From assembly GCA_011049175.1 (NCBI GenBank), contig DSCJ01000003.1, forward strand, positions 1 through 55,908: a stretch of 55,908 nt of DNA, written 5' to 3'. The translations under genes were made by a program, and so were the position numbers. The notes under the pieces are model-generated. The model saw only the letters and a program-made list of their open reading frames with translations, made no database searches and had not been told where the DNA came from. This DNA comes from Bacteroidota bacterium (GTDB taxonomy: Bacteria > Bacteroidota > Bacteroidia > Bacteroidales > VadinHA17). Of this stretch, positions 4,822 to 23,584 are shown piece after piece. Positions within the stretch are counted from its first letter, which is position 1; every line of letters starts with the position of its first letter.

Positions 4822-4823
4822 GA

Positions 4824-5597: not shown

Positions 5598-5633
5598 ATC
5601 TTCTGCAACAGCTTCTCTATTATAACAAGGGAC

Positions 5634-5641
5634 TAAAGATA
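5634..5641 (-). promoter_or_regulatory. Near-consensus -7 box for the 5597 gene
   Basis: On the minus strand the sequence reads TATCTTTA, seven of eight matches to TAnnTTTG, 36 bases before ATG 5597. It supports that start over the one at 5663. Confidence 0.35.
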
Positions 5642-5698
5642 AATCCCCCGAGGCATTTTTCATAAAATCCCAGGATGAATGTATACAGATTTGAGGCC

Positions 5699-5729
5699 AA
5701 AAAAAAATCCGGCGGGTTGTTTTGCCGGA
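5699..5729 (-). terminator. Intrinsic terminator after gltD
   Basis: On the minus strand, 94 bases past the gltD stop, a TCCGGC/GCCGGA stem (5708-5713 with 5724-5729) with a ten-base loop is followed by nine T. It closes the ilv-leu-gltBD transcription unit. Confidence 0.75.
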
Positions 5730-5823: not shown

Positions 5824-7266
5824 TTAATCTTTCTTTTCCATGTAGTGCCCGGAAATAAACCGGTGTACTTCCTCTGCCACCTGCATGGCTCCGGCCATGG
5901 CTTTTACCACCAGGCTGGCTCCGATAACCGCATCCCCTGCAGCGAACAAACCCGGAATATTGGTCATGTATTTCTCATTTACCCGAATGTGGGGATTGCC
6001 TCCGGGTTTTCCCTTCAGCTCCTTCGGTAACCCGTCAAATACCGGAGAAATAAATCCCACAGCCAGCAGAACCAGGTCGGCCGCTAACCGTTGTTCCGAG
6101 CCAGCTGTTTTTCCCATACACCATTGACCGGTTTCCTCACGTGTCCACCTGACAGGCTCCAGGCGAACCGCCTGTACACCCTGCTTGTTACCTTCGAAAG
6201 CTACCGTTTTCATGCTCCATAAACGCCGGCATCCTTCCTCGTGGGAAGAGGAAGTTCTTAAAATTTCAGGCCAGAAAGGCCAGTGATTGTCTGGAGGCCT
6301 GGACATTGGAGGCCTGGGGAGGATTTCTACCTGGGTAACCGAGGCAGCATTTTGCCTGATGGCCGTACCCACACAATCCGAACCCGTATCACCCCCACCT
6401 ATCACCACAACATGTTTCCCGGCGGCATGAATCCGCTGTTCATCAGGGATATCCATGCCCGCGTTCACTTTGTTTTGCTGCACCAGGTAATCCATGGCAA
6501 AATGAATCCCCTGAAGCTTTCGTCCCGGCACAAGCACATCCCTGGGCCGTCCGGTACCGATAGCCAGTACCACAGCATCATATTCCTCCATCAGAAGTGA
6601 AACGGATACATCCCTGCCCACACAGATTCCTGTACGGAAAACAATGCCTTCGGCCTGCAATATTTCCAGCCGCCGGTCAATGAAACGCTTATTCAGCTTG
6701 AAATCGGGAATACCGTAACGCAGGAGCCCTCCAGGCCTGGACTCCTTCTCCAAAACATCCACCGAGTGGCTCATTCTGTTCAATCTCACCGATAGAGTGA
6801 GACCCGCCGGGCCGGAACCCACCACAGCCACTTTCTTGCCTGTCCTGTACTTCGGGGGCCGGGGAGTAATCCATCCCCGTTCAAAAGCTTTTTCCACCAC
6901 GGCCGCCTCGTTTTCCCGGATGGTTACCGCTTCGTTATGTATGGCCAGCACGCATGATTTCTCACAGAGAGCGGGACACACCCGTCCGGTAAATTCAGGA
7001 AATTCGTTGCTCAGGTGCAACATTTCGGAAGCTTCTTTCCAGTTGTTTCTGAAAAGGGCATCCTGCCACTCCGGTATATGCGGAGCCAGGGGGCATGCCC
7101 AGTGGCAAAAAGGCACCCCGCAGTCCATGCAGCGGGAGGCCTGCAGTTTTCTGTCCTCGGGGTTCAGTGTCTGCTCCACTTCCCCGAAATCATCAATGCG
7201 TTCTTTCACCGGCCGGTTTCCGGCTTCCTTTCGACCGACCTTTAAAAAACCTAACGGATCACCCAT
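5824..7266 (-). CDS. gltD: Glutamate synthase, small subunit
   Basis: This 480-residue FAD/NAD(P)H-binding subunit passes electrons from NADPH (or NADH) to the large subunit GltB. The N-terminal ferredoxin-like domain has Cys46, Cys49, Cys54 and Cys58 (CMDCGVPFCHWAC), and a second group lies in RVCPALCEKSC for the low-potential 4Fe-4S clusters. Dinucleotide folds follow: VAVVGSGPAGL for FAD and VVVIGGGDTGSD for the pyridine nucleotide. Length matches the bacterial family. It is the last gene of the eleven-gene operon, 33 bases after gltB, and is followed by an intrinsic terminator. Confidence 0.97.
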   Translation of the reverse strand: MGDPLGFLKVGRKEAGNRPVKERIDDFGEVEQTLNPEDRKLQASRCMDCGVPFCHWACPLAPHIPEWQDALFRNNWKEASEMLHLSNEFPEFTGRVCPALCEKSCVLAIHNEAVTIRENEAAVVEKAFERGWITPRPPKYRTGKKVAVVGSGPAGLTLSVRLNRMSHSVDVLEKESRPGGLLRYGIPDFKLNKRFIDRRLEILQAEGIVFRTGICVGRDVSVSLLMEEYDAVVLAIGTGRPRDVLVPGRKLQGIHFAMDYLVQQNKVNAGMDIPDEQRIHAAGKHVVVIGGGDTGSDCVGTAIRQNAASVTQVEILPRPPMSRPPDNHWPFWPEILRTSSSHEEGCRRLWSMKTVAFEGNKQGVQAVRLEPVRWTREETGQWCMGKTAGSEQRLAADLVLLAVGFISPVFDGLPKELKGKPGGNPHIRVNEKYMTNIPGLFAAGDAVIGASLVVKAMAGAMQVAEEVHRFISGHYMEKKD

Positions 7267-7299: not shown

Positions 7300-10200
7300 T
7301 CATTCGGCAAAATCAGGATCGTAAGCCGCCTTTTGCAGCTTCAGATTGATTTCACGCAGCTTTGCCTCGTTAAGCACTTTTTTGTATTCCAGGGGAAATA
7401 CCTTCACAAAAACGGGCAGGTATTCATCCCAGCGGGTCAGAATCCTTTCGGCCCGGGCACTGTGGGTAACCTGCCAGTGTGTCGAAATGATCGACTGTAA
7501 CTCCTTTACGTCGTCATAATCAGTTATATGCGATAGTTCTACCAGATCGTGGTTACAGAGTTCCCTGAGTTTTTTTTCCTCATCGAGCACATAAGCGATG
7601 CCCCCGCTCATGCCGGCAGCGAAATTTCTGCCGATTTTCCCCAGGATCACCACCCGTCCTCCGGTCATGTATTCACAACCGTGATCGCCTGTACCCTCGG
7701 CCACTGCATAGGCGCCGCTGTTTCGCACACAAAATCTTTCTCCTGCAATCCCGTTCACAAAGAGCCATCCCCGGGTAGCCCCATACAGAATGGTATTGCC
7801 GATAATGATACTGTTTTCCGCACGGAAACGGGCGTTGGCAGGAGGCACCACCACGATCCTGCCCCCGGAAAGACCTTTCCCCAGGTAATCGTTGGCATCC
7901 CCTTCCAGCCTGAAGGTAATGCCCTGAGCCAGGAATGCCCCGAAGCTCTGACCGGCCGAACCATAAAAGTTGCAATGGATGGTATCGTCAGGAAGACCGT
8001 TCAGTCCATGCTGCCGGATGAGAGCCCCCGACAATTTCGCTCCCACGGCCCGGTCGGTATTCCTGATTTTCCTGGCTATCCATATTTTTTCCTTCTTCAC
8101 CAGGGCCTTTTCCGCCGTCCGGATCAGGTCATCGTCCATAATGCCATCGATGGGATGATGTTGTTCCATAACCTTCCGATGGCTCCGGTTTTTTGCTTGT
8201 TTATCATAATGAAGCAAACCGCTCAGGTCCACAAGGCGAACCTTCGGATGGTTCCATCCTTTCCTGACCGTCAGCAGGTCTCTCCTTCCCACCATATCGT
8301 CGAACTGTCTGAAACCCATCGCAGCCAGATGTTCCCGCACATCTTCGGCCAGGAACCGAAAGAAATGGACCACATACTCCGATTTCCCGGTAAATCTTTT
8401 CCGCAGCTCCCTGTTCTGGGTGGCTATCCCTGCCGGGCAGGTATTCTGGTGGCATTTCCGCATCATCACACATCCCAGGGTAATCAGGCATGCTGTTGAC
8501 AGGCCGAATTCCTCGGCACCCAGCAAACCGGCTATGACCAGGTCACGGCCGGTTTTCAGCTGACCGTCTACCTGGATTTTTACCCTTTCGCGTAATCCGT
8601 TCATAACCAGGGTTTGATGGGTTTCTGCAAGCCCCAGTTCCATGGGCAATCCGGCATACCGTACCGAGCTCAGGGGACTGGCGCCGGTTCCGCCTTCTCC
8701 GCCGCTGATCACGATCAGATCAGCATGCGCTTTCGCCACCCCCACTGCCACGGTTCCCACCCCGTTTTCCGACACCAGCTTGACACTGATCCTGGCGGCC
8801 GGATTGGCGCACTTCAGATCGTAAATCAGCTGGGCCAGGTCTTCAATGGAATATATGTCATGGTGCGGGGGAGGCGATATCAGGGTGATTCCCGGCACTG
8901 AACGCCTTATCCGTGCCACATTCCGGTCGACTTTGTGTCCGGGCAACTGCCCGCCTTCACCGGGTTTTGCGCCCTGGGCAATCTTAATCTGGATTTCATC
9001 GGCATGGTTCAGGTAAAAAATATCCACACCGAACCGACCGGAGGCCACCTGTTTGATGGCACTCCGTCTGACTTCTCCGTTCGCCCCCGGCAGATACCGG
9101 TTCGGATCTTCCCCTCCCTCTCCCGAATTGCTGCGCCCTCCGATGGCATTCATGGCAATGGCGAGGGCCTCGTGGGCTTCCCTGCTAATCGACCCGAACG
9201 ACATGGCCCCGGTTACAAATCGCTTCATGATAGATTCTGCGGGCTCCACTTCCCCTACAGGTATTGGATTCTTTCTGTAATCAAGCATTCCCCGAAGAAA
9301 AGCAGGGCGGCATGTTTCGCTGTCAGCCAGCCGGGTGTATTCCCTGAATTTCCCCGGATCATTCTGTGCGGTGGCCGATTGCAGCCAGGCGATGGTTTCC
9401 GGATTCCATGCATGGAATTCACCCCCCCGTCGGTAGGAATATATCCCCCGGGTTGTGAAAACCGGCTGCCAGGAATCATCTGTACAGGCATCCCGGTGAA
9501 AAGCCTCCGCTTCGGCAGCAATTTCCCTCAGGCCGATCCCTCCAATCCTTGAAGGAGTCCCCGTGAAGTATCTCCCGGCAATTTCCTCACTCAGCCCCAC
9601 GGCTTCGAAAAGCTGGGACCCCATATAACTGAGCAGGGTGGAAATCCCCATTTTCGAAAGGATTTTGAGGATGCCTTTATTGACAGCACGTATATAATTT
9701 TCCCGGGCTCTGGAATAAGGCAGGCCGATTTCTCCCTTTTTCACAAGATCACTGAGCACGGCAAAACTGAGGTACGGATTGATCACACTGGCTCCGTAAC
9801 CAATCAGGAGGGCATAATGCATCACTTCCCGTGCCTCGCCCGTTTCCACGATCAACCCCACCTGCATCCGTTTTTTGTGCTCAATAAGGTAATGGTGCAC
9901 GGCAGCCACTGCCAGCAGGGATGGGACCGGTACCTGATCGCGGTTGGTTTTCCTGTCGGAAAGAATAATGAAATTCTTTTGATTGTCCACCGCTTTTTCA
10001 GCCTCAAGGGTAATCCTTTCCAGGGCTTTTTCCAATCCCCTTTGCCCCGAGTTCTTTTCAAAAACCATATCTATGATCGCATGAGAAAAGGATTCATGCC
10101 GCATATCCTTGATCTTACCCAGATCGGTATTGGTTATAACCGGCGAATCAAACCTGATCAGCCGGCAATGCCCCGGGGTTTCCTCCAGCAGGTTTTTCTG

Positions 10201-11844
10201 CACCGAACCGATATAACTGGTAAGCGACATGACCAGTTCTTCCCGGATGGGGTCGATGGGAGGGTTGGTTACCTGTGCAAAAACCTGCCTGAAGTAATTG
10301 AACAAACGCTGGGGTTTATCGGAAAGGACTGCCAGGGGGGTATCGTTCCCCATGGAGCTGACCGGCTCTTTGCCTTCCAGAGCCATGGGGATCATTACGT
10401 ACCGCAGGTCTTCTTTCGAATAGCCGAATGCCTTCAGCAGGAAGGGATATTCTTCTCCCAGACCGGAAGAAACCCTTTGCTGAACCTCGATATTCTCCAG
10501 AGCCAGCCTGTTTTCCTTAAGCCAGTTGACATAGGGATTCCGTCGGGCCAGCTGCATTTTTACTTCTTCGTCGGGAATGATGATTCCCAGGCGCGTATCA
10601 ACCAGCAGGATTTTACCCGGATGCAGCCTTCCCCTGGCCACAATCCGGCCACCATCGAATTCCTGCACACCGGTTTCCGACCCCATCACAATCAGGTCGT
10701 CTTCCGTTACCAGGTAGCGGGCCGGACGCAGTCCGTTCCGGTCGAGGGTACCACCCACGTAACGACCGTCGGAAAACAACAGGGCAGCCGGGCCGTCCCA
10801 TGGTTCCATAAAAGTGGAATGGTATTCATAATACGCTTTCAGGCTTGGAGGAATTGGATTTTTGTCGTTAAACGATTCCGGCACCAGCATGGTCAGGGCA
10901 TGCGGAAGCGTGCGACCCGTCATGGTCAGAAATTCCAGTACATTGTCGAGTGAGGCCGAATCGCTTTTTCCCGGTTCGATCACCGGAAAAAGCTTCTCCA
11001 GATCGTCACCGAACAGCTCCGATTTCAGCAGGGCCTCCCGGGCGTGCATCCACAGGCGGTTACCCCTGATAGTATTGATCTCCCCGTTGTGCGCCAGCAT
11101 TCTGAACGGCTGGGCCAGGTCCCAGCTGGGAAATGTATTGGTGCTGAACCGGGAATGAACCAGGGCAATGGCACTTTCCATCGAGGGATTAGACAGATCG
11201 GGATAGTAGGCCTGAAGCTGTTCGGGAGTGAACATGCCCTTATAGATCATCACCCTGGTTGACAGGCTGCAGATATAGAAAACCTCCTTTCCGGACAAGG
11301 AAGATTCCCTCACTTTTTTTTCCATGCGTTTCCTGAACACATAGAGCTTACGCTCCAGTTCATCCTGTTCCATGTCGGCCCGGAGAAAAACCTGCCGGAT
11401 GGCCGGTTCCGATCTTCTGGCGATTTCCCCCAGGGAACGGTTGTCCACCGGCACATCGCGTAAAAACATCCATCCCAGGCCTTCTTCCTCTGCCGTTTCC
11501 TTCATCAGTTTGAGTATCCGGTTCTGTTCCTCTTTCCGCACAGGCAGAAAAACCAGGCCGGTACCGTAGGTGCCCGGTTCCGTAACGGGAAAATTTTCTG
11601 CCAGGAAAAACGAATGGGGAATCTGTATGAGGATACCTGCTCCGTCGCCTGTTTTGTTGTCGGCCGATTCGGCACCCCGGTGCCGCATATTGACCAGCAC
11701 TTCCAGGCCCCGGGCAATGATCTCATGCGATGGTTTCCCCCTGATGTGGGCCACGAAGCCAATCCCGCAACTGTCGTGTTCCCTGTCAGGATGATATAAA
11801 CCTGTTTTCTCCGGTCTGTTGATAAAATATTCTTTATGCTTCAT
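7300..11844 (-). CDS. gltB: Glutamate synthase, large subunit
   Basis: This 1514-residue enzyme converts glutamine and 2-oxoglutarate into two glutamates. The order is a short propeptide, then a class II glutamine amidotransferase domain whose nucleophile is Cys26 (DSCGIGF, exposed by cleavage), a central domain, the FMN/2-oxoglutarate synthase domain (GEGGEDPNRY, then KPGEGGQLPG), the 3Fe-4S ligands in CVMMRKCHQNTCPAG, and the C-terminal GXGXG beta-helix. Length is normal for bacterial GltB. It starts only 23 bases after leuB stops, with no terminator or clear promoter between, so it appears to belong to the branched-chain amino acid operon. Glutamate is the amino donor for the last step of that pathway. 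Confidence 0.98.
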   Translation of the reverse strand: MKHKEYFINRPEKTGLYHPDREHDSCGIGFVAHIRGKPSHEIIARGLEVLVNMRHRGAESADNKTGDGAGILIQIPHSFFLAENFPVTEPGTYGTGLVFLPVRKEEQNRILKLMKETAEEEGLGWMFLRDVPVDNRSLGEIARRSEPAIRQVFLRADMEQDELERKLYVFRKRMEKKVRESSLSGKEVFYICSLSTRVMIYKGMFTPEQLQAYYPDLSNPSMESAIALVHSRFSTNTFPSWDLAQPFRMLAHNGEINTIRGNRLWMHAREALLKSELFGDDLEKLFPVIEPGKSDSASLDNVLEFLTMTGRTLPHALTMLVPESFNDKNPIPPSLKAYYEYHSTFMEPWDGPAALLFSDGRYVGGTLDRNGLRPARYLVTEDDLIVMGSETGVQEFDGGRIVARGRLHPGKILLVDTRLGIIIPDEEVKMQLARRNPYVNWLKENRLALENIEVQQRVSSGLGEEYPFLLKAFGYSKEDLRYVMIPMALEGKEPVSSMGNDTPLAVLSDKPQRLFNYFRQVFAQVTNPPIDPIREELVMSLTSYIGSVQKNLLEETPGHCRLIRFDSPVITNTDLGKIKDMRHESFSHAIIDMVFEKNSGQRGLEKALERITLEAEKAVDNQKNFIILSDRKTNRDQVPVPSLLAVAAVHHYLIEHKKRMQVGLIVETGEAREVMHYALLIGYGASVINPYLSFAVLSDLVKKGEIGLPYSRARENYIRAVNKGILKILSKMGISTLLSYMGSQLFEAVGLSEEIAGRYFTGTPSRIGGIGLREIAAEAEAFHRDACTDDSWQPVFTTRGIYSYRRGGEFHAWNPETIAWLQSATAQNDPGKFREYTRLADSETCRPAFLRGMLDYRKNPIPVGEVEPAESIMKRFVTGAMSFGSISREAHEALAIAMNAIGGRSNSGEGGEDPNRYLPGANGEVRRSAIKQVASGRFGVDIFYLNHADEIQIKIAQGAKPGEGGQLPGHKVDRNVARIRRSVPGITLISPPPHHDIYSIEDLAQLIYDLKCANPAARISVKLVSENGVGTVAVGVAKAHADLIVISGGEGGTGASPLSSVRYAGLPMELGLAETHQTLVMNGLRERVKIQVDGQLKTGRDLVIAGLLGAEEFGLSTACLITLGCVMMRKCHQNTCPAGIATQNRELRKRFTGKSEYVVHFFRFLAEDVREHLAAMGFRQFDDMVGRRDLLTVRKGWNHPKVRLVDLSGLLHYDKQAKNRSHRKVMEQHHPIDGIMDDDLIRTAEKALVKKEKIWIARKIRNTDRAVGAKLSGALIRQHGLNGLPDDTIHCNFYGSAGQSFGAFLAQGITFRLEGDANDYLGKGLSGGRIVVVPPANARFRAENSIIIGNTILYGATRGWLFVNGIAGERFCVRNSGAYAVAEGTGDHGCEYMTGGRVVILGKIGRNFAAGMSGGIAYVLDEEKKLRELCNHDLVELSHITDYDDVKELQSIISTHWQVTHSARAERILTRWDEYLPVFVKVFPLEYKKVLNEAKLREINLKLQKAAYDPDFAE

Positions 11845-11867: not shown

Positions 11868-12935
11868 TCAGGCATTATCAATGTATCCTGCAATCCATTC
11901 TCCGACATCCCGGGTAGAACATGTTTTCCCCCGGGCAATATCGGGGGTGCCAACCCGTTCATTCACCGAAGCTTCCACTGCTGCCCGGATCAAACCGGCT
12001 TCATCCTTCATTTGAAAACCGTATTCGAACATCATGGCCACTGAGAGGATCATAGCCAGCGGGTTGGCAATATTTTTACCGGCTGCCTGCGGATAGGACC
12101 CGTGAATGGGCTCGAAAACAGAGGTATGCAACCCGATGGATGCGGAAGGCAGCAGCCCCAGCGAACCGGCAATTACACTGGCTTCATCGGTAAGGATATC
12201 CCCGAACATATTTTCCGTAACCAGCACATCAAACCGTGACGGATTCAGGATGATCTGCATGGCTGCATTGTCAACAAACAGGTAATCGGTATCCACCCCG
12301 GGGTACCGTTTACTCACTTCCATGGTAACTTCCCTCCAGAGCCGGGATGTAGCCAGCACATTGGCTTTGTCGACCAGGGTTAACCGGTGTTTTCTTTCCA
12401 TGGCAAAACCGAAAGCCAGATCCACGATCCGTTCGATCTCTTCACGCGTGTACAAACAGGTATCAAAGGCCGTGCCCCCGTCTTCCGACCTTCCGCTGGG
12501 CTGCCCGAAATAGATCCCTCCGATCAGTTCCCTCACCACCAGAAAATCGACCTGCTTCAACAAATGGTTTTTCAGAGGCGACTGATCCATCAATGATGCG
12601 AAGGTGAACACCGGCCGGAGGTTTGCAAACAATCCCAGCTTCTTCCTCATGGCCAGCAGGCCCTGCTCGGGCCGTACCTCTGCCCGGGGGTTGCTGTCGT
12701 AGCGCGGATGCCCGATAGCTCCGAAAAGCACAGCATCGGCGTTCATACAAAGCCGATGTGTTTCATCGGGGTAGGGATTACCGGTTTTGTCGATGGCAGC
12801 AGCGCCCACCAGCCCGCCGGCAAATTCCACCTTATGACCATACCTGCGGGCCACAACGCGGGTCACACGTACCGCTTCTTCCATAACTTCCGGCCCGATT
12901 CCGTCGCCGGGCAGCAATGCAATGTTCATTTCCAT
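11868..12935 (-). CDS. leuB: 3-isopropylmalate dehydrogenase
   Basis: This 355-residue NAD-dependent beta-decarboxylating dehydrogenase carries out the third leucine step. Visible family motifs are [11 protein letters not shown] at the N-terminus, [13 protein letters not shown] in the substrate region, VDKANVL (catalytic Lys), [10 protein letters not shown] (metal-binding Asp) and EPIHGSYP. Its start codon follows directly on the stop of the upstream synthase gene (12936), so the two are tightly coupled. Confidence 0.97.
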
Positions 12936-14465
12936 TTACTTATCATTCAGTTTTTCCATCAGATTAAGTGCTTTCACTGTAGCCTGAATGGCTGCCTCGG
13001 TCTGATCCGAGTCCACTGCCCGGGTTTTGAATTCCCTTCCCCTGTATGCCCATGTAATGATGGTTTCCACCAAAGCGTCGGGTTTCCCCCCCGGAGGAAT
13101 GGTCACTACATAATCCAGCAGCCGGGGATGGTCCCTGCCAAGCTTTTCATATATCTTCCAGAGAGCATTCATAAAAGCATCGTATTGCCCGTCGCCTGTG
13201 GCGTTTTCTTCATATTCCGATCCGTTCACAGAAAGGGAGATATTGGCCGAAGGCCGTAATCCCCGCGAAAGCGAGAGCACATAATGCCGGATACTGACCG
13301 GCGGATCGGCTTCTCCGTTGCCCATCACATCGGCCAGGATATAAGGAAGGTCCCCGGTGGTAACATATTGTTTCTTGTCGCCCAGTTCAATAACCCGGCG
13401 GGTAAGTTTTTTCAGGGTTTCCTCGTCGGGATCAAGTCCGAGCTCTTCCAGGTTCTTCCGGATACTGGCCTTCCCCGAAGTTTTTCCAAGGGCATACTTT
13501 CTGATCCTTCCGAAACGTTCGGGCAACAGATCATTATAATACAGGTTGTTTTTGGCATCCCCGTCGGCATGTACCCCGCAGGTCTGGGTAAACACATTTT
13601 CTCCTATCAGTGGCTGATTGGGAGGAATGCGAATGCCGGAAAACGATTCCACTATCCGGCTGAGCGGGGTCAGTACCGATTCGTTCACCGGAACTTCCTG
13701 TTTCAACTGATCTTTCATGATCCCGATCACACTCGACAGGCAGGCATTACCGGCTCTCTCTCCCAGTCCGTTCACGGTAGTATGTATCCCCCGCATTCCG
13801 TGCTTCAGGGCCGCATATACATTGGCTACAGCCAGATCATAATCATTGTGTGCATGAAAATCGAAATGAACCTCCGGGTAGCGTTCCGTCATATTTTGGC
13901 AAAACATACCTGTCTGATCGGGATTCAGTATGCCCAGCGTATCGGGAAGCATGATACGCCGGATATCTTCATTCACCAGGTGATCGGTAAGGTAATACAC
14001 ATATTCAGGCGAGTGGATCATCCCGTTCGACCAGTCTTCCAGGTATATGTTCACGGTGATTCCGGCCTGACGGGCAAGTTTGATCGACAGGCGAATATCT
14101 TCGAGATGCTGTTCGGGTGTTTTGCCCAGTTGCTGCCGTACATGCCTGAAAGATCCCTTGCATAGCAGGTTGAGTACGTTAACTCCTGCCTTCCTGGCCC
14201 AATCGACGGAAATATTCCCATCGATAAAACCCAGCACTTCCACCCGATTGATCCGGTCTTCTTTCCTGGCCCATTCCGCGATCAGCCTGACTCCCTCCCA
14301 TTCACCGCTGCTCACACGCGCGGATCCCACTTCCACACGGTGCACCCCCAGTTCATCCAGAAGAATCCGTGCCACCTGCAATTTTTCCCTTGGATGAAAA
14401 GACACCCCCGAGGTCTGTTCCCCGTCACGCAGGGTGGTATCCATGATCTCAACCATGCTATACAT
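12936..14465 (-). CDS. Second 2-isopropylmalate / (R)-citramalate synthase family enzyme
   Basis: This 509-residue member of the DRE-TIM metallolyase family has [13 protein letters not shown] (metal and acetyl-CoA site), HAHNDYDLAVAN (metal-binding HxH) and VNGLGERAGN, followed by a LeuA-type allosteric domain (about residues 390-505). It condenses acetyl-CoA with a 2-oxoacid. It differs strongly from the other copy at 16490: the substrate-pocket region is GSARVSSGEW, where leuA has [10 protein letters not shown]. Two synthases in one operon suggest a division of labour, with this one perhaps using pyruvate (citramalate route to isoleucine), but sequence alone does not settle it. The start is ATG 14465, two bases after the leuD stop; ATG 14456 is an alternative. 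Confidence 0.85.
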   Translation of the reverse strand: MYSMVEIMDTTLRDGEQTSGVSFHPREKLQVARILLDELGVHRVEVGSARVSSGEWEGVRLIAEWARKEDRINRVEVLGFIDGNISVDWARKAGVNVLNLLCKGSFRHVRQQLGKTPEQHLEDIRLSIKLARQAGITVNIYLEDWSNGMIHSPEYVYYLTDHLVNEDIRRIMLPDTLGILNPDQTGMFCQNMTERYPEVHFDFHAHNDYDLAVANVYAALKHGMRGIHTTVNGLGERAGNACLSSVIGIMKDQLKQEVPVNESVLTPLSRIVESFSGIRIPPNQPLIGENVFTQTCGVHADGDAKNNLYYNDLLPERFGRIRKYALGKTSGKASIRKNLEELGLDPDEETLKKLTRRVIELGDKKQYVTTGDLPYILADVMGNGEADPPVSIRHYVLSLSRGLRPSANISLSVNGSEYEENATGDGQYDAFMNALWKIYEKLGRDHPRLLDYVVTIPPGGKPDALVETIITWAYRGREFKTRAVDSDQTEAAIQATVKALNLMEKLNDK

Positions 14466-14467
14466 AT

Positions 14468-15064
14468 TTAGGTGTTGGAATTTTCTTCATACTTCCGGAT
14501 CTCATTCTGCAATCCCAGCAAATAATCCACATCATCCCATCCGTTGAGCAGGCATTGTTTTCTGAAGGGATTGATCTCGAACCAGTAGATATCTTCTCCC
14601 AGCATCACCTTTTGTTTTTCGAGGTCGATGGTAATCCGGACCTTCGGATCCCTGTCAATAGCCAGGAATATCACATTCAGGTACTGCTCGCTTACCTGAA
14701 CGGGCAGCAGGCCGTTATTCAGGGCGTTGTTCCGGAAGATATCGGCAAAAAAGCTGGAAATAACCGCTCTGAAACCATAATCGACCAGGGCCCAGGCAGC
14801 ATGTTCCCGGCTTGATCCCGACCCGAAGTTACGTCCGGCCACCAGGATTCTGCCCGCGTATTCGGGCCGGTTAAGGGGAAAATCAGGCAGAGGGTTTCCC
14901 GCACTGTCAAAACGCAGGTCTCTGAAGAGATATTCACCAAAGCCTTCCCGGGTTACTGCTTTCAGAAATCTTGCCGGAAGGATCTGATCGGTATCCACAT
15001 TCTCTGCGGGTAGGGGAACGGCAGAAGAAACCAGACGGGTAAATTTTTCAATTGGCATGTTCAA
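14468..15064 (-). CDS. leuD: 3-isopropylmalate dehydratase, small subunit
   Basis: This 198-residue swivel-domain subunit pairs with LeuC to isomerise 2-isopropylmalate to 3-isopropylmalate (and citramalate to 3-methylmalate in the citramalate route). ENVDTDQILPARF near the start and AGRNFGSGSSREHA, which holds the substrate-binding Ser/Arg, identify it. Length is normal. It is 13 bases from leuC and two bases from the following synthase gene. Confidence 0.97.
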   Translation of the reverse strand: MNMPIEKFTRLVSSAVPLPAENVDTDQILPARFLKAVTREGFGEYLFRDLRFDSAGNPLPDFPLNRPEYAGRILVAGRNFGSGSSREHAAWALVDYGFRAVISSFFADIFRNNALNNGLLPVQVSEQYLNVIFLAIDRDPKVRITIDLEKQKVMLGEDIYWFEINPFRKQCLLNGWDDVDYLLGLQNEIRKYEENSNT

Positions 15065-15077
15065 CCGGTTTGAATCG

Positions 15078-16493
15078 TTACATAAGCTCTCTGGGATCGG
15101 TAATCACTCCGGTCACGGCCGAAGCGGCAGCTGTCAGTGGGCTGGCCAGCAGGGTTCGTGAACCCGGCCCCTGACGGCCCCGGAAGTTCCTGTTTGAAGT
15201 GGAAAGACAGTATTTCCCGGGTGGAACTTTGTCGTCGTTCATGGCCAGGCAGGCCGAACATCCCGGTTGCCTGAGTTCGAATCCGGCTTCTTTCAGGATC
15301 CGGTCTATCCCTTCTTTCCGGGCCTGTTTTTCAACCTGCTGTGAACCGGGAACGATCCATGCGGTTACTCCGGGGGCTTTTTTTCTTCCTTTCACAAGGG
15401 AAGCAAAAGCTCTGAGGTCGCTTATCCGTCCGTTTGTACAGCTTCCCACAAACACGTAATCAATTTTTCTCCCCAGCACCGGCTGTCCCGGCTCAAATCC
15501 CATGTATTGCAGGGCATGTTTGAAACCGTTCAGATGGTTTCCAGGGACGGTATCGGGAGTAGGAATCCGGCCGGTGAGCTTTATCCCCATACCGGGATTG
15601 GTGCCGTATGTGATCATAGGATCCAGGGCGGATATGTCGAAACGGTATTCCCTGTTGAATTTTGCCCCCGGATCGGTGAACAATTTTTTCCAGCCTGTAA
15701 GGCGGTCATTCCAGTCTTCTTCCGAAGGAGAGAATTCCCTCCCTTTCAGGTATTCGAAAGTAACCTCATCGGGTGCGATCAGTCCTCCCCGGGCCCCCAT
15801 TTCAATGCTCATATTGCACAGGGTCATCCGTTCTTCCATAGTAAGTGTCAGGACTGTTTCTCCGGCATATTCAATAAAATGTTGTGTTGCCCCCGATGCG
15901 GACAGGACAGACAGTAGATATAAGGCAATGTCTTTGGCCGTTACACCAATGCCGGGTTTACCTTCCAGGTTGATGCGCATTTTTTCCGGCCGGTTCTGAA
16001 GAAGGCACTGGGTAGCCAGCACCGTTTCCACTTCAGTGGTACCTATTCCAAAGGCCACCGTTCCGAAAGCCCCGTGGGTGGAGGTATGGCTGTCGCCGCA
16101 AACAACAGTCATTCCCGGCTGTGTAAGTCCGAGTTCAGGGCCCATGACATGGACCACCCCCTGAAACGGATGTCCCGGCCCGAAGAACCTGATACCGTGT
16201 TCCCGTGTATTCCGTGTTAACTGATCCACCTGTTTCCGTGAAAGCGGGTCGGTCATGGGTTGCTCCTGATTGACAGTAGGTACATTATGGTCGGCAGTAG
16301 CCACCGTTTTGCATGGGCGGAATACTTTCAATCCTCTTTCCGCGAGGCCGGCAAAGGCCTGCGGGCTGGTCACCTCATGCACCAGGTGCAGATCGATATA
16401 CAGCACATCGGGGCCCTGTTCTATCCGGCGTACCACGTGGCTATCCCATATTTTATCAAACAGGGTTTTCGGCTCTTTCATAACTGCAGTCAT
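15078..16493 (-). CDS. leuC: 3-isopropylmalate dehydratase, large subunit
   Basis: This 471-residue aconitase-family protein carries the 4Fe-4S cluster, with cysteines in [10 protein letters not shown] and in [24 protein letters not shown] and [11 protein letters not shown] are further family signatures. It forms a heterodimer with LeuD encoded just downstream. Its ATG overlaps the leuA stop by four bases (ATGA), indicating translational coupling. Confidence 0.98.
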
Positions 16494-18007
16494 TGTTTTA
16501 CAGGTCGTTCTATTTTCGAAACGGCATCCAGGAAAGCTTCCACCGAGGCGGTGATGATGTCGGTGCTGGCTGAAAAGCCATAATACAGCCTTCCCCGGTT
16601 CTCCACCTGCACATGAACTTTTCCAATATCATCACTGCCCCGGGTAATGGCCTGCACCAGGAACTCTTCCAGCTGTACCTTCCGGGAAAGGATCTTTTTT
16701 ACCGCTGAAAAAGCCGCATCTATAGGTCCGTTTCCTGAAGCGGATTCCGTAATTTTTCCGTTTTCCGTACTGACCGTAACGGTAGCCGTGGGCTTTACCG
16801 ATCTTCCGCAAAGAACCTGCAGCCCGGTCAGTTCAAACCCCCTGGTTTTTTCCCGAGAAGTTCCCACAATCACTTCCAGGTCTTCGTCCTTCAGCTCCTT
16901 CTTCCGGTCGGCCAGCTCGAGAAACTTTGCATACACACTGTCCAGTTCGTTTTTTTCCAGGCGGTACCCCATGGATTCCAGCCGGTGCTTTAATGCGGCC
17001 CTGCCGCTTCTGGCTGTCAGAATTATCGACGATTGCCGTACCCCCACATCTTTGGGATCCATGATCTCATAATTCAACCGGTTTTTCAGCACACCGTCCT
17101 GATGGATCCCCGAGGAGTGGGCAAAGGCATTCCTTCCCACCACGGCCTTGTTGGGTTGTACCGGCATGTTCATCAGCGACGACACCAGCCGGCTGGTAGG
17201 AAATATTTTTTTCGACCGGATGCCGCAGTTCAGGGAAAGGTCTTTGCTTCGGCTTTTCAGGATCATGGCCATCTCTTCGAGGGAGGTGTTACCGGCCCTT
17301 TCACCTACTCCGTTGACCGTTACCTCTACCTGACGTGCTCCGTTGACCACTCCGGCCAACGTATTGGCCGTGGCCATTCCCAGGTCGTTATGACAGTGAG
17401 TGGAGATCACTGCCCGGTGAATTCCCTTCACATTTTCCTTCAGGTACCGGATCTTTTCCCCGTACTCCCCGGGCAGGCAGTAGCCGGTGGTATCGGGTAT
17501 ATTCACCACGGTAGCTCCCGCCCTGATCGCTTCTTCCACCACCCGGGCCAGGTATTCATTATCGGTACGTCCGGCGTCTTCTGCGTAGAACTCCACATCT
17601 TCCACAAATTTTTTTGCGTATTTCACCGCTTCGCGGGTTCGTTCAATGATCTTCCCGCGGGTTGAATTCAGTTTGTATTCAATATGAAAGAAGGAAGTTC
17701 CAATGCCTGTATGAATCCGGGGCCTGCGGGCATGCTGCAACGCCCGGGCCGCCACCTCGATGTCCTTTTCTACCGCCCGGGTCAGGGCACAGACCACCGG
17801 TTCCGATACGGCTTTCGAAATTTCCTGTACCGACCGGAAATCGCCAGGGCTGGAAACCGGGAATCCCGCCTCGATCACATCCACCCCCAGGGCTTCAAGC
17901 GTCCTGGCCACTTCGATCTTTTCAATGGTGTTCAGCTGGCAACCGGGCACCTGTTCCCCATCGCGCAGGGTGGTATCAAAAAAATACACTCTATTATCAT
18001 TATTCAT
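16490..18007 (-). CDS. leuA: 2-isopropylmalate synthase
   Basis: This 505-residue enzyme commits carbon to leucine by joining acetyl-CoA and 2-oxoisovalerate. [14 protein letters not shown], the metal-binding HCHNDLGMA and [10 protein letters not shown] mark the catalytic barrel; a C-terminal LeuA dimerisation/allosteric domain (about residues 370-500) is where leucine binds in this family. I use ATG 18007 because it gives the canonical [19 protein letters not shown] opening and leaves a 14-base gap to ilvC. A GTG at 18061 would overlap ilvC by 40 bases and add a non-conserved leader. Confidence 0.96.
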
Positions 18008-18021
18008 TTCCCCGCACGGTT

Positions 18022-19059
18022 TTAAGGTCTGAGTTTTCTCACGGCAGCTCCTGTTTGCCACATTTCCGATTCCCTGAGCTGTTTCAGCTCTTCGGAAAGC
18101 TTTTCGCGGTAGTCGTCCTGCCGGTTGGCTTCAATGGTAATGGCTGCTTCCTTACCGGAAGCTACACTTTCGTAAAGCCGGTCGAACACAGGGGCCACCG
18201 CGTCCCTGAACCGGTTTTTCCAGTCGAGCGCCCCCCGCTGGGCAGTGGTAGAGCAATTAGCATACATCCAATCCATCCCGTTTTCCGCCACCAGGGGCAT
18301 CAGGCTCTGGGTCAGTTCCTCCACGGTTTCGTTAAAAGCTTCGGAAGGAGTATGACCCATGGCCCGTAACTTATTGTACTGAGCTTCCATCAATCCTGCC
18401 AGGGCGCCCATCAGCACTCCCCTTTCGCCGGTCAGGTCGCTGAACACTTCTTTCTGAAAGTCAGTTTCGAACAGATAGGCAGATCCAATCCCGATCCCAA
18501 GAGAAATTACGCGATCCCACGCCCTGCCGGTAGCATCGCGGTAAATGGCGTAGCTGCTGTTGAGGCCTTTCCCCTCGAGGTACAATCTTCTCAGGGAAGT
18601 GCCCGAACCTTTGGGAGCCACCAGGATGACATCCACCCCAGGAGGCGGCACAATACCCGTTTGGTCGCTGTAGGTCACACCGAACCCATGTGAAAAATAG
18701 AGGGCTTTACCCGGTTCCAGGTTCTTTTCAATCACAGGCCATGCACTGATCTGCCCTGCATCGGAAAGAAGGAACATAATCACGGTCCCTTTCCGGCAGG
18801 CAGTTTCTATATCGAACAGGTCTGCGCCTTCCTTCCAGCCGTCGGCCAGCGCTTTTCCCCAGGAAGCACCGCCCCTGCGTTGTCCCACAATCACATTGAA
18901 TCCGTTATCTTTCAGATTGAGTGCCTGCCCAGGCCCCTGTACGCCGTATCCGATCACGGCCAGGGTTTCTTTTTTAAGGATATCCCTTGCCTTTTCGAGG
19001 GAGAACTCCCTCCGGGTGACGACATTTTCCGTCACGCCTCCGAAATTGATTTTTGCCAT
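18022..19059 (-). CDS. ilvC: Ketol-acid reductoisomerase
   Basis: This 345-residue enzyme catalyses the NAD(P)H- and Mg2+-dependent second common step of valine and isoleucine synthesis. The nucleotide site is [14 protein letters not shown] with GQRRGG after beta-2 (the basic residues suggest an NADPH preference). [17 protein letters not shown], holding metal-binding Asp/Glu, marks the knotted C-terminal domain. Size corresponds to a class I enzyme. It lies ten bases after ilvN. Confidence 0.97.
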
Positions 19060-19069
19060 GTTTCGTTTT

Positions 19070-19648
19070 TTAGTATGATTCGTCTTCCTTCAGGATGTAG
19101 TTAAATGCCATTTCTTTTTCTTCCAGGTGAACTGTAAGCTCTTTCATGGGCTTGGTAATGGCCACCCTGCCCGAACGGATAAATTCCAGCAGCTTGTGTT
19201 TCTTCAGTTTTTCGAGCAATTCCTGGGTTTCGGTTTTATGGCCGGTTTTCTCTATCACCGTATATTCCGGTGTTACTTCCAGTACCCTGGCCCCGTAATC
19301 CCTGATCAGGGTTTCCAGTCCGATCGATCCGGTCACCTCGCCGGTAGGAAGCTTGTAAAGCGCAATCTCCTGGTAAATGATCTGGTCAGTCGTGTAATAA
19401 AAAGCTTTCAGCACATCCACCAGTTTTTCGATCTGCAGAGCCACTTTCCTGACCAGATCCTCGTAACTGTTGATCACAATAGTGAAGCAATGGATGCCGG
19501 GAATATGCGATTCCGAAACCGTGAGGCTTTCAATGTTGATCTTTCGCCTGGTAAATATGATGGTCAGGCGGTTGAGTAAACCGATATGGTTTTCGCTGAA
19601 CACATTGATGGTATATTCCCTGATTTCTTTTTTCTGTTCGCTGTTCAT
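19070..19648 (-). CDS. ilvN: Acetolactate synthase, regulatory subunit
   Basis: This 192-residue small subunit binds to IlvB, raises its activity and confers valine feedback inhibition. An ACT domain occupies about residues 10-90 (YTINVFSENHIGLLNRLTII). A C-terminal domain follows (VTGSIGLETLIRDYGARVLEV). The size fits a full-length small subunit. It is 18 bases after ilvB. Confidence 0.95.
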   Translation of the reverse strand: MNSEQKKEIREYTINVFSENHIGLLNRLTIIFTRRKINIESLTVSESHIPGIHCFTIVINSYEDLVRKVALQIEKLVDVLKAFYYTTDQIIYQEIALYKLPTGEVTGSIGLETLIRDYGARVLEVTPEYTVIEKTGHKTETQELLEKLKKHKLLEFIRSGRVAITKPMKELTVHLEEKEMAFNYILKEDESY

Positions 19649-19666: not shown

Positions 19667-21406
19667 TTATTCAAGACGAACATTGGATACCGATTCCCCG
19701 GTAGGGATCATCGGAAATACATTGTGTTCGGGCTCCACCATGACCTCAAGGAAAGAGCTGTCATCAGAGGCCAGGAGGCGATCCAGTTTTTCATCCAGAT
19801 CTTCCCGTATAATACACCGCTCCGCATGGATGCCGTATGCATTTGCCACGTTAACAAAATCGGGGTTTTGCAGTTCGGTAAAGGAATACCGCTTTCTGAA
19901 GAACATATCCTGCCACTGCCTGACCATTCCCAGAAACTGATTGTTAAGCAGGATTATTTTTACAGGTACTTTCGACTGGGTAATGGTGCCCAGTTCCTGG
20001 ATCGTCATCTGGAAGCCTCCGTCACCCACAAAGAGTACCACATCCCTGTCGGGCCGTCCGATTTTTGCCCCGATGGAAGCCGGCAATCCGAATCCCATAG
20101 TCCCCAGCCCTCCCGAGGTTACAAAACTGCCCGGACGCTGGAACATATAATACCGGGCTGCCACCATCTGGTGCTGCCCCACATCGGTCACCACCACAGC
20201 CTCTCCCTGGGTCATTTCCGATACACGGTGTACCACCTCATCCATTTTGATTTGTCCGTTAACGGGTTTCCTGTTGGGGCGGATCACTGTTTCCTCCTCC
20301 TCTGTCCGGAATGAGCCGAACGTATCGATCCACCCGGTATGGCGGTTTTCTTTCACATAAGAAAGAAGGGTGGATAGCGCTTCCCGGGCATCGGCAACAA
20401 CAGACAGGGTCACCGGCACATTCTTATTGATCTCGGCAGGATCAATATCTATATGGATAATTTTTGCCTGCCGGGCATAACTCTCCAGCCGGCCGGTAAT
20501 ACGGTCGTCAAAACGAAGTCCAACGGCGATCAGCACATCACATTCGTTGGTTTTCACGTTGGGAGCAAAATTGCCATGCATACCCAGCATGCCTGCAAAC
20601 AACCTGTGCCCTGAAGGAAAAGCCGATAAGCCAAGCAGGGTACTGGCCACCGGAATATCGGCCCGGGTAGCCAACTCCATAAGCTGATCCTGTGCTCCTG
20701 ATATCAACACCCCGTGTCCGGCCAGGATGAGCGGTTTACGCGACTGGTTGATCAGCCTGGCAGCCTCCTGTATCTCATTCAGTTTTACCTTCGGATAGGG
20801 GAAGTAACTTCTCAGCCGGGTGCATTTGCGGTATGACCATGTTGTTTCCCCAAACTGGGCATCCTTGGTAATATCTACCAGCACCGGCCCTGGCCGGCCG
20901 GTTTTTGCCAGGTAAAATGCCCGGGCAATGACCCTGGGAACATCTTCCGCCGAGGTGATCTGGGCATTCCATTTGGTTACCGGCATTGAGATCCCTACCA
21001 CGTCGGTTTCCTGGAAGGCATCGGAACCGAGCAGAGGGGAAGCGACCTGCCCGGTGATGCACACCATCGGAACCGAATCGATCATGGCATTGGCCAGGCC
21101 GGTGATCAGGTTTGTGGCTCCCGGTCCGGAAGTAACCAGGCAAACACCCACTTTTTCTGTTACCCTTGCATACCCATCGGCTGCATGCGCGGCACCCTGC
21201 TCATGCCTGACCAGGATATGCCTGAGCCGGTCGCGGTAATCATACAGAGCGTCATAGACAGGCATGATGGCCCCTCCGGGATATCCAAAGATCACATCGA
21301 CTCCTTCTTCCAGAAGGGAAAGCATGAGTGCTTCCGATCCTGTGACGGTACAGCCTGTTTTTGAGGCTGTCGCCATTTTTTGGTTTTCACGATTTTCCCT
21401 GAACAT
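19667..21406 (-). CDS. ilvB: Acetolactate synthase, catalytic subunit
   Basis: This 579-residue thiamine diphosphate enzyme makes 2-acetolactate or 2-aceto-2-hydroxybutanoate. FGYPGGAIMPVYDAL, the catalytic-Glu motif VRHEQGAAHAADGYAR and the ThDP/Mg2+ motif GDGGFQMTIQELG ending at LLNN are all present. Pyruvate decarboxylation by this enzyme is the first common step of the branched-chain pathway. An alternative start at the internal Met (residue 11, MATASKTG) would shorten it slightly. Confidence 0.97.
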   Translation of the reverse strand: MFRENRENQKMATASKTGCTVTGSEALMLSLLEEGVDVIFGYPGGAIMPVYDALYDYRDRLRHILVRHEQGAAHAADGYARVTEKVGVCLVTSGPGATNLITGLANAMIDSVPMVCITGQVASPLLGSDAFQETDVVGISMPVTKWNAQITSAEDVPRVIARAFYLAKTGRPGPVLVDITKDAQFGETTWSYRKCTRLRSYFPYPKVKLNEIQEAARLINQSRKPLILAGHGVLISGAQDQLMELATRADIPVASTLLGLSAFPSGHRLFAGMLGMHGNFAPNVKTNECDVLIAVGLRFDDRITGRLESYARQAKIIHIDIDPAEINKNVPVTLSVVADAREALSTLLSYVKENRHTGWIDTFGSFRTEEEETVIRPNRKPVNGQIKMDEVVHRVSEMTQGEAVVVTDVGQHQMVAARYYMFQRPGSFVTSGGLGTMGFGLPASIGAKIGRPDRDVVLFVGDGGFQMTIQELGTITQSKVPVKIILLNNQFLGMVRQWQDMFFRKRYSFTELQNPDFVNVANAYGIHAERCIIREDLDEKLDRLLASDDSSFLEVMVEPEHNVFPMIPTGESVSNVRLE

Positions 21407-21417
21407 GATATGAAATA

Positions 21418-23250
21418 TTAGGGTTGAATGATTCTTACAGCTCCCCGGTCGGCAGAGGAAACAAACCGGGCATAGACTCTCAGGGCGGCAGTGATATTCC
21501 TGTTTCTCCCATCCGGAGTATAGGCTGCCGCCCCCCTGCCTTTTTCCTGTTCTTCTCTATGTTCCCATTCCCTGTCGTCCACTTCCGCCATGATGGTGCC
21601 GGCTGAGATATCGATACGGATCCTGTCGCCTTCCCGCAGCAATGCGATCTTTCCACCGGCTGCGGCCTCAGGAGAAATGTGCCCGACTGACAGGCCGGAT
21701 GTACCGCCGGAAAACCTGCCGTCGGTGATGAGCGCCACTTTTTTGTCGAGCTTTACCGATTTCAGATAAGAGGTGGGATACAGCATTTCCTGCATTCCCG
21801 GTCCACCGCGTGGCCCCTCGTACCTGATCACCAGCACATCTCCTTCTCTGATCTTTCCGGAAAGAATGGCTTCACATGCGGTTTCCTGTGATTCAAATAC
21901 ATGGGCCCTGCCGGTAAAAACCAGCATGGAAGGATCGACAGCGGCTGTTTTGACCACGCACCCGCCGGAAGCAATATTCCCTTTCAATACCGCCAGCCCT
22001 CCCTTGCGCGAATACGCATGCTCAACCGACCGGATGCATCCCTGTTGCCTGTCGGTATCCAGTTGTTCGGCATATTTTCCCTGTGAGCTGCCCGCAAAAT
22101 TCACGATCCCTCCCGGTGCACTGCGGTACAGTTTCAGGGCTTCGCCGGTAACCCTTTCGCTGCAAATATCATAGCGGGCAATGGCTTCTCCCAGGGACAG
22201 GCCGTCAACCCGGAACACCTCCCGGTCGATCAGGCCGGCCCGGTCCAGCTCACCCAGGATGGAAAGCACCCCCCCGGCCCGGTTAACATCTTCCATATGA
22301 TAGTGCGAACCGGGAGAAACCTTACACAGATGAGGGATCTTTCCTGAAAAACGGGCCACATCATCCAGGGTGAAATCTAGTTGGGCCTCATATGCAATGG
22401 CCAGGAGGTGAAGGACGGTATTGGTGGATCCTCCCATCGCCAGATCAAGAGCCATGGCATTGCCGAACGCTTTTTCCGAAGCGATATTCCGCGGCAGAAC
22501 CCTATCATCCCCGTCGTTGTAGTATCGCATGGCCAGGCGCACTATTTGCTGAGCTGCCGAATGCAGAAGATGCTCTCTGTTCCGGTGAGTAGCCACCACG
22601 GTCCCGTTCCCCGGAAGGGAAAGCCCCAGGGCTTCCGTGAGGCAGTTCATGGAATTGGCAGTGAACATCCCCGCACAGGATCCGCAGGTAGGGCAGGCCA
22701 GGCGTTCCACCTGTTCAAGTAGCGAATCCTCCACGGTGGGATCGCCTGCCATGACCATGGCATCCACCAGATCGATTTTCTTCCCTGCCACCGTACCCGC
22801 TTCCATGGGTCCCCCGGAAACAAAAACAGCCGGGATATTCAGCCTCATGGCGGCCATAAGCATTCCCGGTGTGATCTTGTCGCAATTGCTGATGCAAATC
22901 ATGGCATCGGCACGGTGCGCATTAACCATATATTCCACGCTGTCGGCAATCAGTTCGCGGGAAGGCAATGAATACAGCATCCCGTCGTGCCCCATGGCTA
23001 TGCCGTCGTCAATGGCAATGGTGTTGAACTCGGCAGCAAAACACCCCGCCTGCTCGATCACTTTTTTCACCTGCTGGCCGGCAGGATGCAAATGAGCATG
23101 TCCCGGCACAAACTGGCTGAACGAATTGACCACGGCAATGACAGGCATTCCAAAATGCGCATCCTTCATTCCGTTGGCCCTCCACAGGCTTCGGGCGCCC
23201 GCCATTTTTCGACCCTGTGTACTGGTATGGCTTCTCAGTGGTATCTTCAT
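21418..23250 (-). CDS. ilvD: Dihydroxy-acid dehydratase
   Basis: This 610-residue Fe-S enzyme dehydrates dihydroxy-acids to 2-oxoisovalerate and 2-oxo-3-methylvalerate. The cluster cysteines lie in [12 protein letters not shown] and [17 protein letters not shown]. The start [18 protein letters not shown] is canonical for the Escherichia coli-type long form. It is the first structural gene of the operon, and the transcript reaches it only after passing the attenuator at 23261-23334. Confidence 0.98.
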
Positions 23251-23260
23251 TTTTCTCCAT

Positions 23261-23295
23261 AAAAAAAGAGCCGCTCTCCCTGGTGAGAACGGCTC
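23261..23295 (-). terminator. Attenuator terminator in the ilv operon leader
   Basis: On the minus strand GAGCCG (23295-23290) pairs with CGGCTC (23273-23268). The stem extends inward by four more pairs (23275-23278 with 23285-23288) after one mismatch, has a six-base loop, and is followed by seven T (23267-23261). It ends ten bases before ATG 23250, so it can stop transcription before ilvD. Its 5' arm is shared with the antiterminator. Confidence 0.9.
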
Positions 23296-23334
23296 CGGTT
23301 AACCATTTATAGCTACAAGCATACCATTCTCACC
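23282..23334 (-). promoter_or_regulatory. Antiterminator pairing of the ilv attenuator
   Basis: On the transcript, segment 2 GGUGAGAAUGG (23334-23324) can pair with segment 3 CCGUUCUCACC (23292-23282): eleven consecutive pairs with a single G-U. Segment 3 overlaps the 5' arm of the terminator, so the two structures exclude each other. Segment 2 contains the UGA stop codon of the leader peptide. A ribosome finishing the peptide would cover it and let the terminator form, whereas a ribosome stalled on the upstream Ile/Leu codons would leave it free. Confidence 0.85.
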
Positions 23335-23398
23335 CGCTCATCCTGAGGAGGAGGAGAATCAAAAGGGTAATCATGATATGCTGACCTGTACGTGTCAT
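23330..23398 (-). CDS. Branched-chain amino acid leader peptide
   Basis: This 22-codon open frame (ATG 23398, TGA 23332-23330) lies ahead of ilvD. Its middle holds ten codons HIMITLLILL continuing into LL, giving three Ile and six Leu within eleven residues, including four CTC Leu codons in a row. There is no Val. It opens MTRTGQ and ends RMSG. This is the arrangement of leader peptides that sense charged Ile- and Leu-tRNA. It is too short to be found by normal gene calling. The stop codon sits inside the antiterminator segment. Confidence 0.85.
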   Translation of the reverse strand: MTRTGQHIMITLLILLLLRMSG

Positions 23399-23405
23399 TT
23401 CGATG

Positions 23406-23440
23406 TAAAAGTAAACAATGATTCCATTCGTGGTATCAAA
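23406..23440 (-). promoter_or_regulatory. Candidate promoter of the ilv-leu-glt operon
   Basis: On the minus strand TTTG (23440-23437) and TACTTTTA (23413-23406; seven of eight to TAnnTTTG) are separated by 23 bases, slightly long. The box ends seven bases before the leader-peptide ATG, so the leader would start almost at the 5' end of the RNA. Confidence 0.4.
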
Positions 23441-23545: not shown

Positions 23546-23584
23546 AAAAAAAGACATCCGGCCTCAGCCGGATGTCTTTTTTTT
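23546..23584 (-). terminator. Intrinsic terminator after hppA
   Basis: AAAAAAAGACATCCGGC and its exact complement are separated by the loop CTCA, with eight T on the right and seven A on the left. It is a strong terminator that would work in both directions; it lies 27 bases past the hppA stop and insulates hppA from the ilv leader region. Confidence 0.93.

Follow-up and report, generated by a model that had tools for sequence, protein, structure and literature searches.

An eleven-gene operon, ilvDBNC-leuACD-cimA-leuB-gltBD, is very probably controlled by a transcription attenuator of the trp/his/leu type, ribosome-mediated and situated just before ilvD on the minus strand of the window, the 55,908-nucleotide stretch of a Bacteroidota genome analysed here. 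The parts of this device, the mutual exclusion of its helices, its conservation, the covariation in its stems and the match between its codons and the pathway are all observed, and the last of these is the strongest independent support for an attenuator. The Ile/Leu attenuator that a first-pass annotation had read in these letters is thereby supported by anatomy, by conservation at 47 loci, by covariation and by modelling.

According to NCBIfam and Pfam matches, the gene order is ilvD-ilvB-ilvN-ilvC-leuA-leuC-leuD-cimA(-like)-leuB-gltB-gltD (Table 1). Intergenic gaps do not exceed about 35 nt and some of the genes overlap, the order through leuB, often followed by gltBD, is seen again in relatives of the same GTDB family, and a terminator-like hairpin closes the array after gltD, all of which supports the eleven-gene unit of the first-pass annotation. 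This last hairpin escaped the terminator scan, its loop being longer than 8 nt. The cimA-like product scores 631 bits with NF042433, a model of Leptospira-type citramalate synthase, against a cut-off of 950, so that its family and reaction are likely and its exact function uncertified. Past the operon terminator, positions 3862-5663 encode a CarboxypepD_reg-like product and an enzyme that is PLP-dependent (PALP, threonine/serine dehydratase-like), and the threonine route to isoleucine may thus coexist with the citramalate route. On the other side, hppA, the gene upstream of the leader, is closed by a terminator, which leaves the leader with a promoter region of its own.

Table 1. Features of the operon and its leader, with three further leaders from the same genome. 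Positions are those of the window, except where a locus handle is given.
Feature	Position	Strand	Basis
Terminator of upstream gene hppA (H_PPase PF03030)	23546..23582	minus	sequence
Putative Bacteroidota -7 box TACTTTTA	23406..23413	minus	sequence
Leader ORF, 22 codons, MTRTGQHIMITLLILLLLRMSG, then stop TGA (23332-23330)	23398-23330	minus	sequence and relatives
Segment 1, pairs with 23327-23319 (9 pairs, protector 1:2)	23373..23381	minus	
Control codons 12-18, CTT TTG ATT CTC CTC CTC CTC (Leu/Ile run)	23345..23365	minus	constrained folding
Segment 2, antiterminator 5′ arm, holds UGA stop	23323..23334	minus	covariation in 9/12 pairs
Segment 3, common to antiterminator (23293-23282) and terminator (23296-23285)	23282..23296	minus	
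Segment 4, terminator 3′ arm	23267..23278	minus	terminator scan and covariation
Terminator U-run, 7 T, first T paired	23261..23267	minus	sequence
ilvD, first operon gene	21418..23250	minus	NF009103/TIGR00110 over cut-off
ilvB	19667..21406	minus	TIGR00118 over cut-off
ilvN	19070..19648	minus	TIGR00119 over cut-off
ilvC	18022..19059	minus	TIGR00465 over cut-off
leuA	16490..18061	minus	TIGR00973 over cut-off
leuC	15078..16493	minus	TIGR00170 over cut-off
leuD	14468..15064	minus	TIGR00171 over cut-off
cimA-like (citramalate synthase)	12936..14465	minus	best match NF042433 CimA, E = 1.2e-189
leuB	11868..12935	minus	TIGR00169 over cut-off
gltB, glutamate synthase large subunit	7300..11844	minus	NF008730 over cut-off
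gltD-like, glutamate synthase small subunit	5824..7266	minus	Fer4_20 and Pyr_redox_2; after gltB in relatives
Terminator-like hairpin TCCGGC...GCCGGA and T9, operon end after gltD	5699..5729	minus	sequence
hisG leader MNQLTASVLHHHHHTG, stop, five His, then terminator	L171 (G000:C54)		
trpE leader MKQTTINSMWWWPAVFPNGFRR, stop, three Trp, then terminator	L173 (G000:C12)		
pheA leader MNLSRFFGFFFFGTG, stop, six Phe, then terminator	L174 (G000:C89)		

The leader contains three Ile and six Leu codons, with four CTC in a row, and no Val codon. An ORF with nine I/L/V per 12 codons turns up in 16 of 1000 dinucleotide shuffles of the upstream region (p ~0.016); the peptide alone is therefore modestly unlikely, and the case is settled by conservation across the 47 loci. 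Its UGA stop lies in an antiterminator of 12 pairs (23334-23323 with 23293-23282), 11 of them followed by a terminal U-G, whereas the competing terminator joins 23296-23285 to 23278-23267, also by 12 pairs, and is the strongest terminator-like site in the 19 kb scanned. Since both helices use 23293-23285, they are mutually exclusive. In all these points, the 22 codons with their Ile/Leu run and lack of Val, the 11-pair antiterminator over the UGA and the rival terminator with its seven T before ilvD, the first-pass annotation is borne out. It did not contain a third element, the nine-pair protector hairpin, which forms with P = 0.998 when the leader is folded without a ribosome. Segment 1 consists of the G of CAG, CAT, ATC and the AT of ATG in the leader, and a second protector helix pairs ACCC (23368-23365) with GGGU (23335-23332). 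Strong in the window, the protector is clear in close relatives and weaker in some others; with it the 1:2, 2:3 and 3:4 set is complete. The fold of the whole leader has z = -4.1, none of 200 shuffles being as stable, with z = -4.8 for the antiterminator alone and -3.6 for the terminator region.

So structured a leader could in principle be a metabolite- or tRNA-binding element, a riboswitch or T-box, instead of being translated. Yet the features that are conserved are codon type and alternative helices, with no aptamer, and we consider such an element extremely improbable. At the Rfam gathering threshold no family matches in the window, including amino-acid leader, T-box and riboswitch models; at E <= 10, the leader yields chance-like terminator or sRNA models below threshold and nothing else.

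In the attenuator model, enough charged tRNA-Leu and tRNA-Ile would let the leader ribosome reach the UGA and cover segment 2, whereupon the 3:4 terminator would halt transcription before ilvD. When Leu-tRNA or Ile-tRNA runs short, the ribosome would stall in the LLILLLL run, covering segment 1 and leaving segment 2 free; the 2:3 antiterminator would then form before segment 4 is made, and polymerase would read through. If the leader is not translated at all, 1:2 would form and the terminator would prevail. The co-transcriptional order, the stalling and the change in expression are inferred steps of this model.

We placed a ribosome at each leader codon in turn, with its footprint edge 12-15 nt beyond the first A-site base, and folded the RNA that remained free downstream of it. 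Modelled in this way, the antiterminator of the window is favoured only while the A site is at about codons 12/13 to 17/18, a permissive stretch that coincides with the LLILLLL run, while the terminator is favoured at codons 1-9, from codon 19 to the stop and without a ribosome. The stop codon is so placed that, with standard footprints, a modelled ribosome there masks segment 2, which a stalled one leaves free. When full-length leaders are folded at equilibrium, the window and some relatives fit the switch, but in most relatives the terminator beats the antiterminator at any ribosome position; equilibrium folding was rejected as a test of the switch and replaced by folding up to segment 4. 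This behaviour means that the model requires kinetic, co-transcriptional folding in which the antiterminator forms first. With folding up to segment 4, I, L and V make up 55% of the permissive codons at the 47 loci versus 12% of those between the end of the permissive stretch and the stop, a contrast weakened by the constraint that the segment 2 sequence also imposes on codons near the stop.

About 110 ilvD loci were collected and their upstream regions scanned regardless of outcome. A strong terminator precedes ilvD at 54 of 67 Bacteroidota loci, and it is combined with an I/L/V-rich leader ORF ending just before it at 47 distinct ones (the scripted count of 49 includes one near-duplicate and one false leader). 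The terminator test failed at 13 of the 67, several of them Prevotella-like and some with little upstream sequence; L036, L047, L061, L066, L069, L077 and L079 belong to this set. At least seven I/L/V in 12 codons are found in 50 of 65 Bacteroidota upstream regions versus 12% of shuffles; outside Bacteroidota the figures are 3 of 39 regions versus 4% of shuffles. The peptide sequences themselves diverge widely, codon type and stop position being what remains constant.

Covariation was assessed in a MAFFT alignment of 48 loci (A1) that was not fitted to any structure. In the terminator, 98.1% of cells are paired and 10 of 11 pairs show changes on both sides; in the antiterminator, 79.5% are paired versus at most 51% when the arms are slid, and 9 of 12 pairs carry double changes. 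The covariation scores, 0.578 for the terminator (0.255 shuffled) and 0.257 for the antiterminator (0.181 shuffled), are reached by none of 500 shuffles in either case, with shuffles that ignore relatedness, which the slid controls retain. Unpaired antiterminator cells come mostly from a nine-member subgroup whose segment 2 lies two columns off (A2). Moreover, segments 2 and 3 of the same leader pair at -16.3 kcal/mol versus a permuted mean of -12.2 (best of 5000, -13.8), and segments 1 and 2 at -16.3 versus -13.0 kcal/mol permuted over the 47 loci (best of 5000, -14.6). The codon run thus recurs in relatives and both stems covary, two of the points by which the first-pass annotation had let its reading stand or fall.

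Codon choice follows the pathway. Within the same GTDB family, leaders are Ile/Leu/Val-rich before ilvD (22/22), His-rich before hisG (23/24), Trp-rich before trpE (18/21) and Phe/Tyr-rich before pheA (26/30), with 0-4 wrong-amino-acid matches in each of these gene sets. The genome of the window itself carries leaders of the last three kinds, and no clear leader with terminator at its thrA. Elsewhere in Bacteroidota, a Thr/Ile-rich leader, MTINNTIITTIITTGIKDGGR, stands with a terminator before a thrA-like gene (L123, G273:C2:317972-318055) and is a candidate thr attenuator. Other lineages of the phylum have Ile/Val-rich leaders with terminators before ilvE (L119, L127), a second type of ilvD (L128, L126) and an ilvN-like gene (L142); the attenuated first gene would thus differ between lineages. 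When 296 Bacteroidota genomes were searched with a covariance model built from the ilvD leaders, 104 of them gave matches, a tally that we rejected as a count of attenuators because most matches of 40-50 bits are generic terminators that follow unrelated genes. The informative matches are the ilvE, ilvD and ilvN leaders of other lineages and the Thr/Ile-rich thrA leader.

The terminator might instead be constitutive or tied to another signal, the peptide acting alone through translational coupling or as a trans-acting leader peptide or sRNA (cf. peTrpL). Leader peptides can indeed act in trans (PMC7298713), and changing the control codons of the similar Streptomyces coelicolor ilvB leader is reported to have no effect (PMC1262725), a caution for the attenuator reading as well. 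In our case, however, the peptide sequence varies and what persists is codon type, stop position and antiterminator. In four operons codon type matches the pathway encoded downstream; moreover, the leader stop and ilvD are 79 nt apart, a distance too great for ordinary translational coupling. An independent role of the peptide is, in our opinion, very unlikely.

As to what the attenuator senses, the first-pass annotation proposed isoleucine and leucine. Both codons are present and Val is absent, as it held; the modelling, though, points mainly to Leu with one central Ile within codons 12/13-18. Ile8 is inside segment 1, Ile10 at or beside it, and only Ile14 falls in the modelled permissive stretch, so that the response may be mostly to leucine. 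Pushed further, the same attenuator would effectively be a leucine sensor in which codons 12-18 matter, Ile14 is a minor input and Ile8 and Ile10 are kept for their segment 1 bases. Consistent with this, the modelled antiterminator probability is about 0.01 at Ile8, within segment 1, and 0.01-0.45 at Ile10 depending on the footprint, whereas it reaches 0.76-0.97 at codons 13-18 with a 13-nt footprint. But before segment 4 exists the antiterminator forms also with the ribosome at Ile8 or Ile10, and most family relatives have as many Ile as Leu codons. We regard an effectively leucine-specific device as a real possibility, on balance somewhat doubtful.

A sensor of both amino acids fits the operon content, since LeuCDB serve the synthesis of Leu and also that of Ile when it is made through citramalate. 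Val represents 0.09 of I+L+V in leaders of the GTDB family of the window versus 0.39 in other Bacteroidota leaders (p = 1.4e-7), a contrast that is confounded by phylogeny, the low-Val group being one family, and is kept as a correlation. In this low-Val family leuACDB and cimA are joined to the ilv operon. Outside it, ilv genes alone follow the three Bacteroidota leaders for which the downstream 18 kb was read, and in two lineages leuA comes after ilvC as well. The Val-free Ile/Leu sensor coincides with the fusion of leuACDB and cimA into the operon, a new point that is put forward as a correlation.

The leader ATG comes 7 nt after the end of the putative -7 box, which predicts an RNA 5′ end within about 0-4 nt of the AUG. 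In the congener G001 (L083), whose leader, MTRSGQHIIITHILLLLLLGMSG, differs in length and preserves the frame, this distance is 8 nt. Most relatives have their TAnnTTTG-type -7 box 17-37 nt away, and the TACTTTTA octamer itself is also found 18-22 nt before the leader in five members of the GTDB family. The leader AUG is therefore likely at or within about 4 nt of the RNA 5′ end in this genus; the earlier suggestion that it may lie at the very 5′ end holds as a prediction for this genus and does not extend to most relatives. Translation could otherwise start at the internal AUG9 (M-ITLLILLLL), 31 nt after the box and so inside the usual range of relatives. This codon is however ATT in the congener, whose only in-frame start here is AUG1, and AUG1 and the reading frame are kept between both species, two being all that the genus comparison includes. 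We find an AUG9 start unlikely and retain AUG1 as the predicted one. Short 5′ UTRs are rare across Bacteroidota in published maps (PMC7366714, PMC9723704), those below 10 nt amounting to 3.7% in B. thetaiotaomicron (PMC7366714) and leaderless ones to 5.5% in Flavobacterium psychrophilum (PMC9723704). Among trp leaders of the GTDB family, L209, L210, L213, L220, L224 and the L173 of the window's own genome start 8-9 nt after a -7 box. Near-leaderless leader peptides may have arisen repeatedly.

A joint reading of these observations is that attenuation is the default control of Bacteroidales amino-acid biosynthesis (ilv, his, trp, phe; thrA elsewhere in the phylum) despite rare Shine-Dalgarno use, that codon sets follow operon content, Val being dropped and Leu and Ile read where leuACDB and cimA are joined, and that in this genus (ilv) and some relatives (trp) the ribosome that does the sensing loads very near the 5′ end. 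We give it nearly, and not quite, an even chance. If true, 5′-end loading would keep the polymerase and the first ribosome in close step. As attenuation needs a ribosome close behind RNA polymerase, these leaders offer a ready means of probing how transcription and translation are coupled in a phylum whose translation initiation is unusual. The attenuator is shared by a large group of Bacteroidota from gut and environment, for which Rfam offers no matching family, and the family of the window has parallel His, Trp and Phe leaders in its genomes. Bacteroidales, including Bacteroides and Phocaeicola, thus gain a concrete, testable candidate mechanism for branched-chain amino-acid control. Annotation easily misses ORFs as short as these leaders.

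The first-pass annotation considered attenuation notable in a Bacteroidota genome. A 2004 survey of attenuation reportedly also lists Bacteroidetes/Chlorobi cases. Contrary to that first impression, attenuation is widespread in the phylum and has already been proposed there, from the transcriptome of F. psychrophilum, for leader peptides before amino-acid biosynthesis operons, pheA and hisG 5′ elements being named as conserved in its family (PMC9723704). These candidates come from the same phylum and a different class, and the main text of that paper presents neither an ilv case nor a covariation test. In B. thetaiotaomicron, sORFs reminiscent of leader peptides have been noted (PMC7366714), and according to a survey of 2010 leader-peptide attenuation had been demonstrated in no phylum other than Proteobacteria and Actinobacteria (PMC2965389). 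The openly accessible literature searched yielded no description of the Bacteroidales ilvD leader.

Candidate ilvB leaders of Actinobacteria (PMC1262725, PMC11857589, PMC10272879) present the same combination of an Ile/Val/Leu-rich leader and a terminator before an ilv operon, but in a different phylum and with a different first gene. The Veillonella ilvD motif (PMC8632094) is likewise a structured element always found before ilvD, sometimes with a terminator; it is however a weak riboswitch candidate in Firmicutes, for which a leader peptide is not reported. The mechanism itself is of the classical proteobacterial type and is not new. The attenuators of trp, his, leu, thr and ilvGMEDA (Rfam RF00512-RF00514, RF00506) have the same short ORF rich in pathway codons, the same 1:2 protector, 2:3 antiterminator over the stop and 3:4 terminator, with the first gene directly after. 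Compared with them, the leader of the window has no detectable sequence or Rfam relationship, carries a TAnnTTTG-type -7 box promoter, places ilvD first and reads Ile and Leu without Val. It also differs from them by an ATG almost at the predicted 5′ end, and this likely near-leaderless start, in this genus only, is a further new feature.
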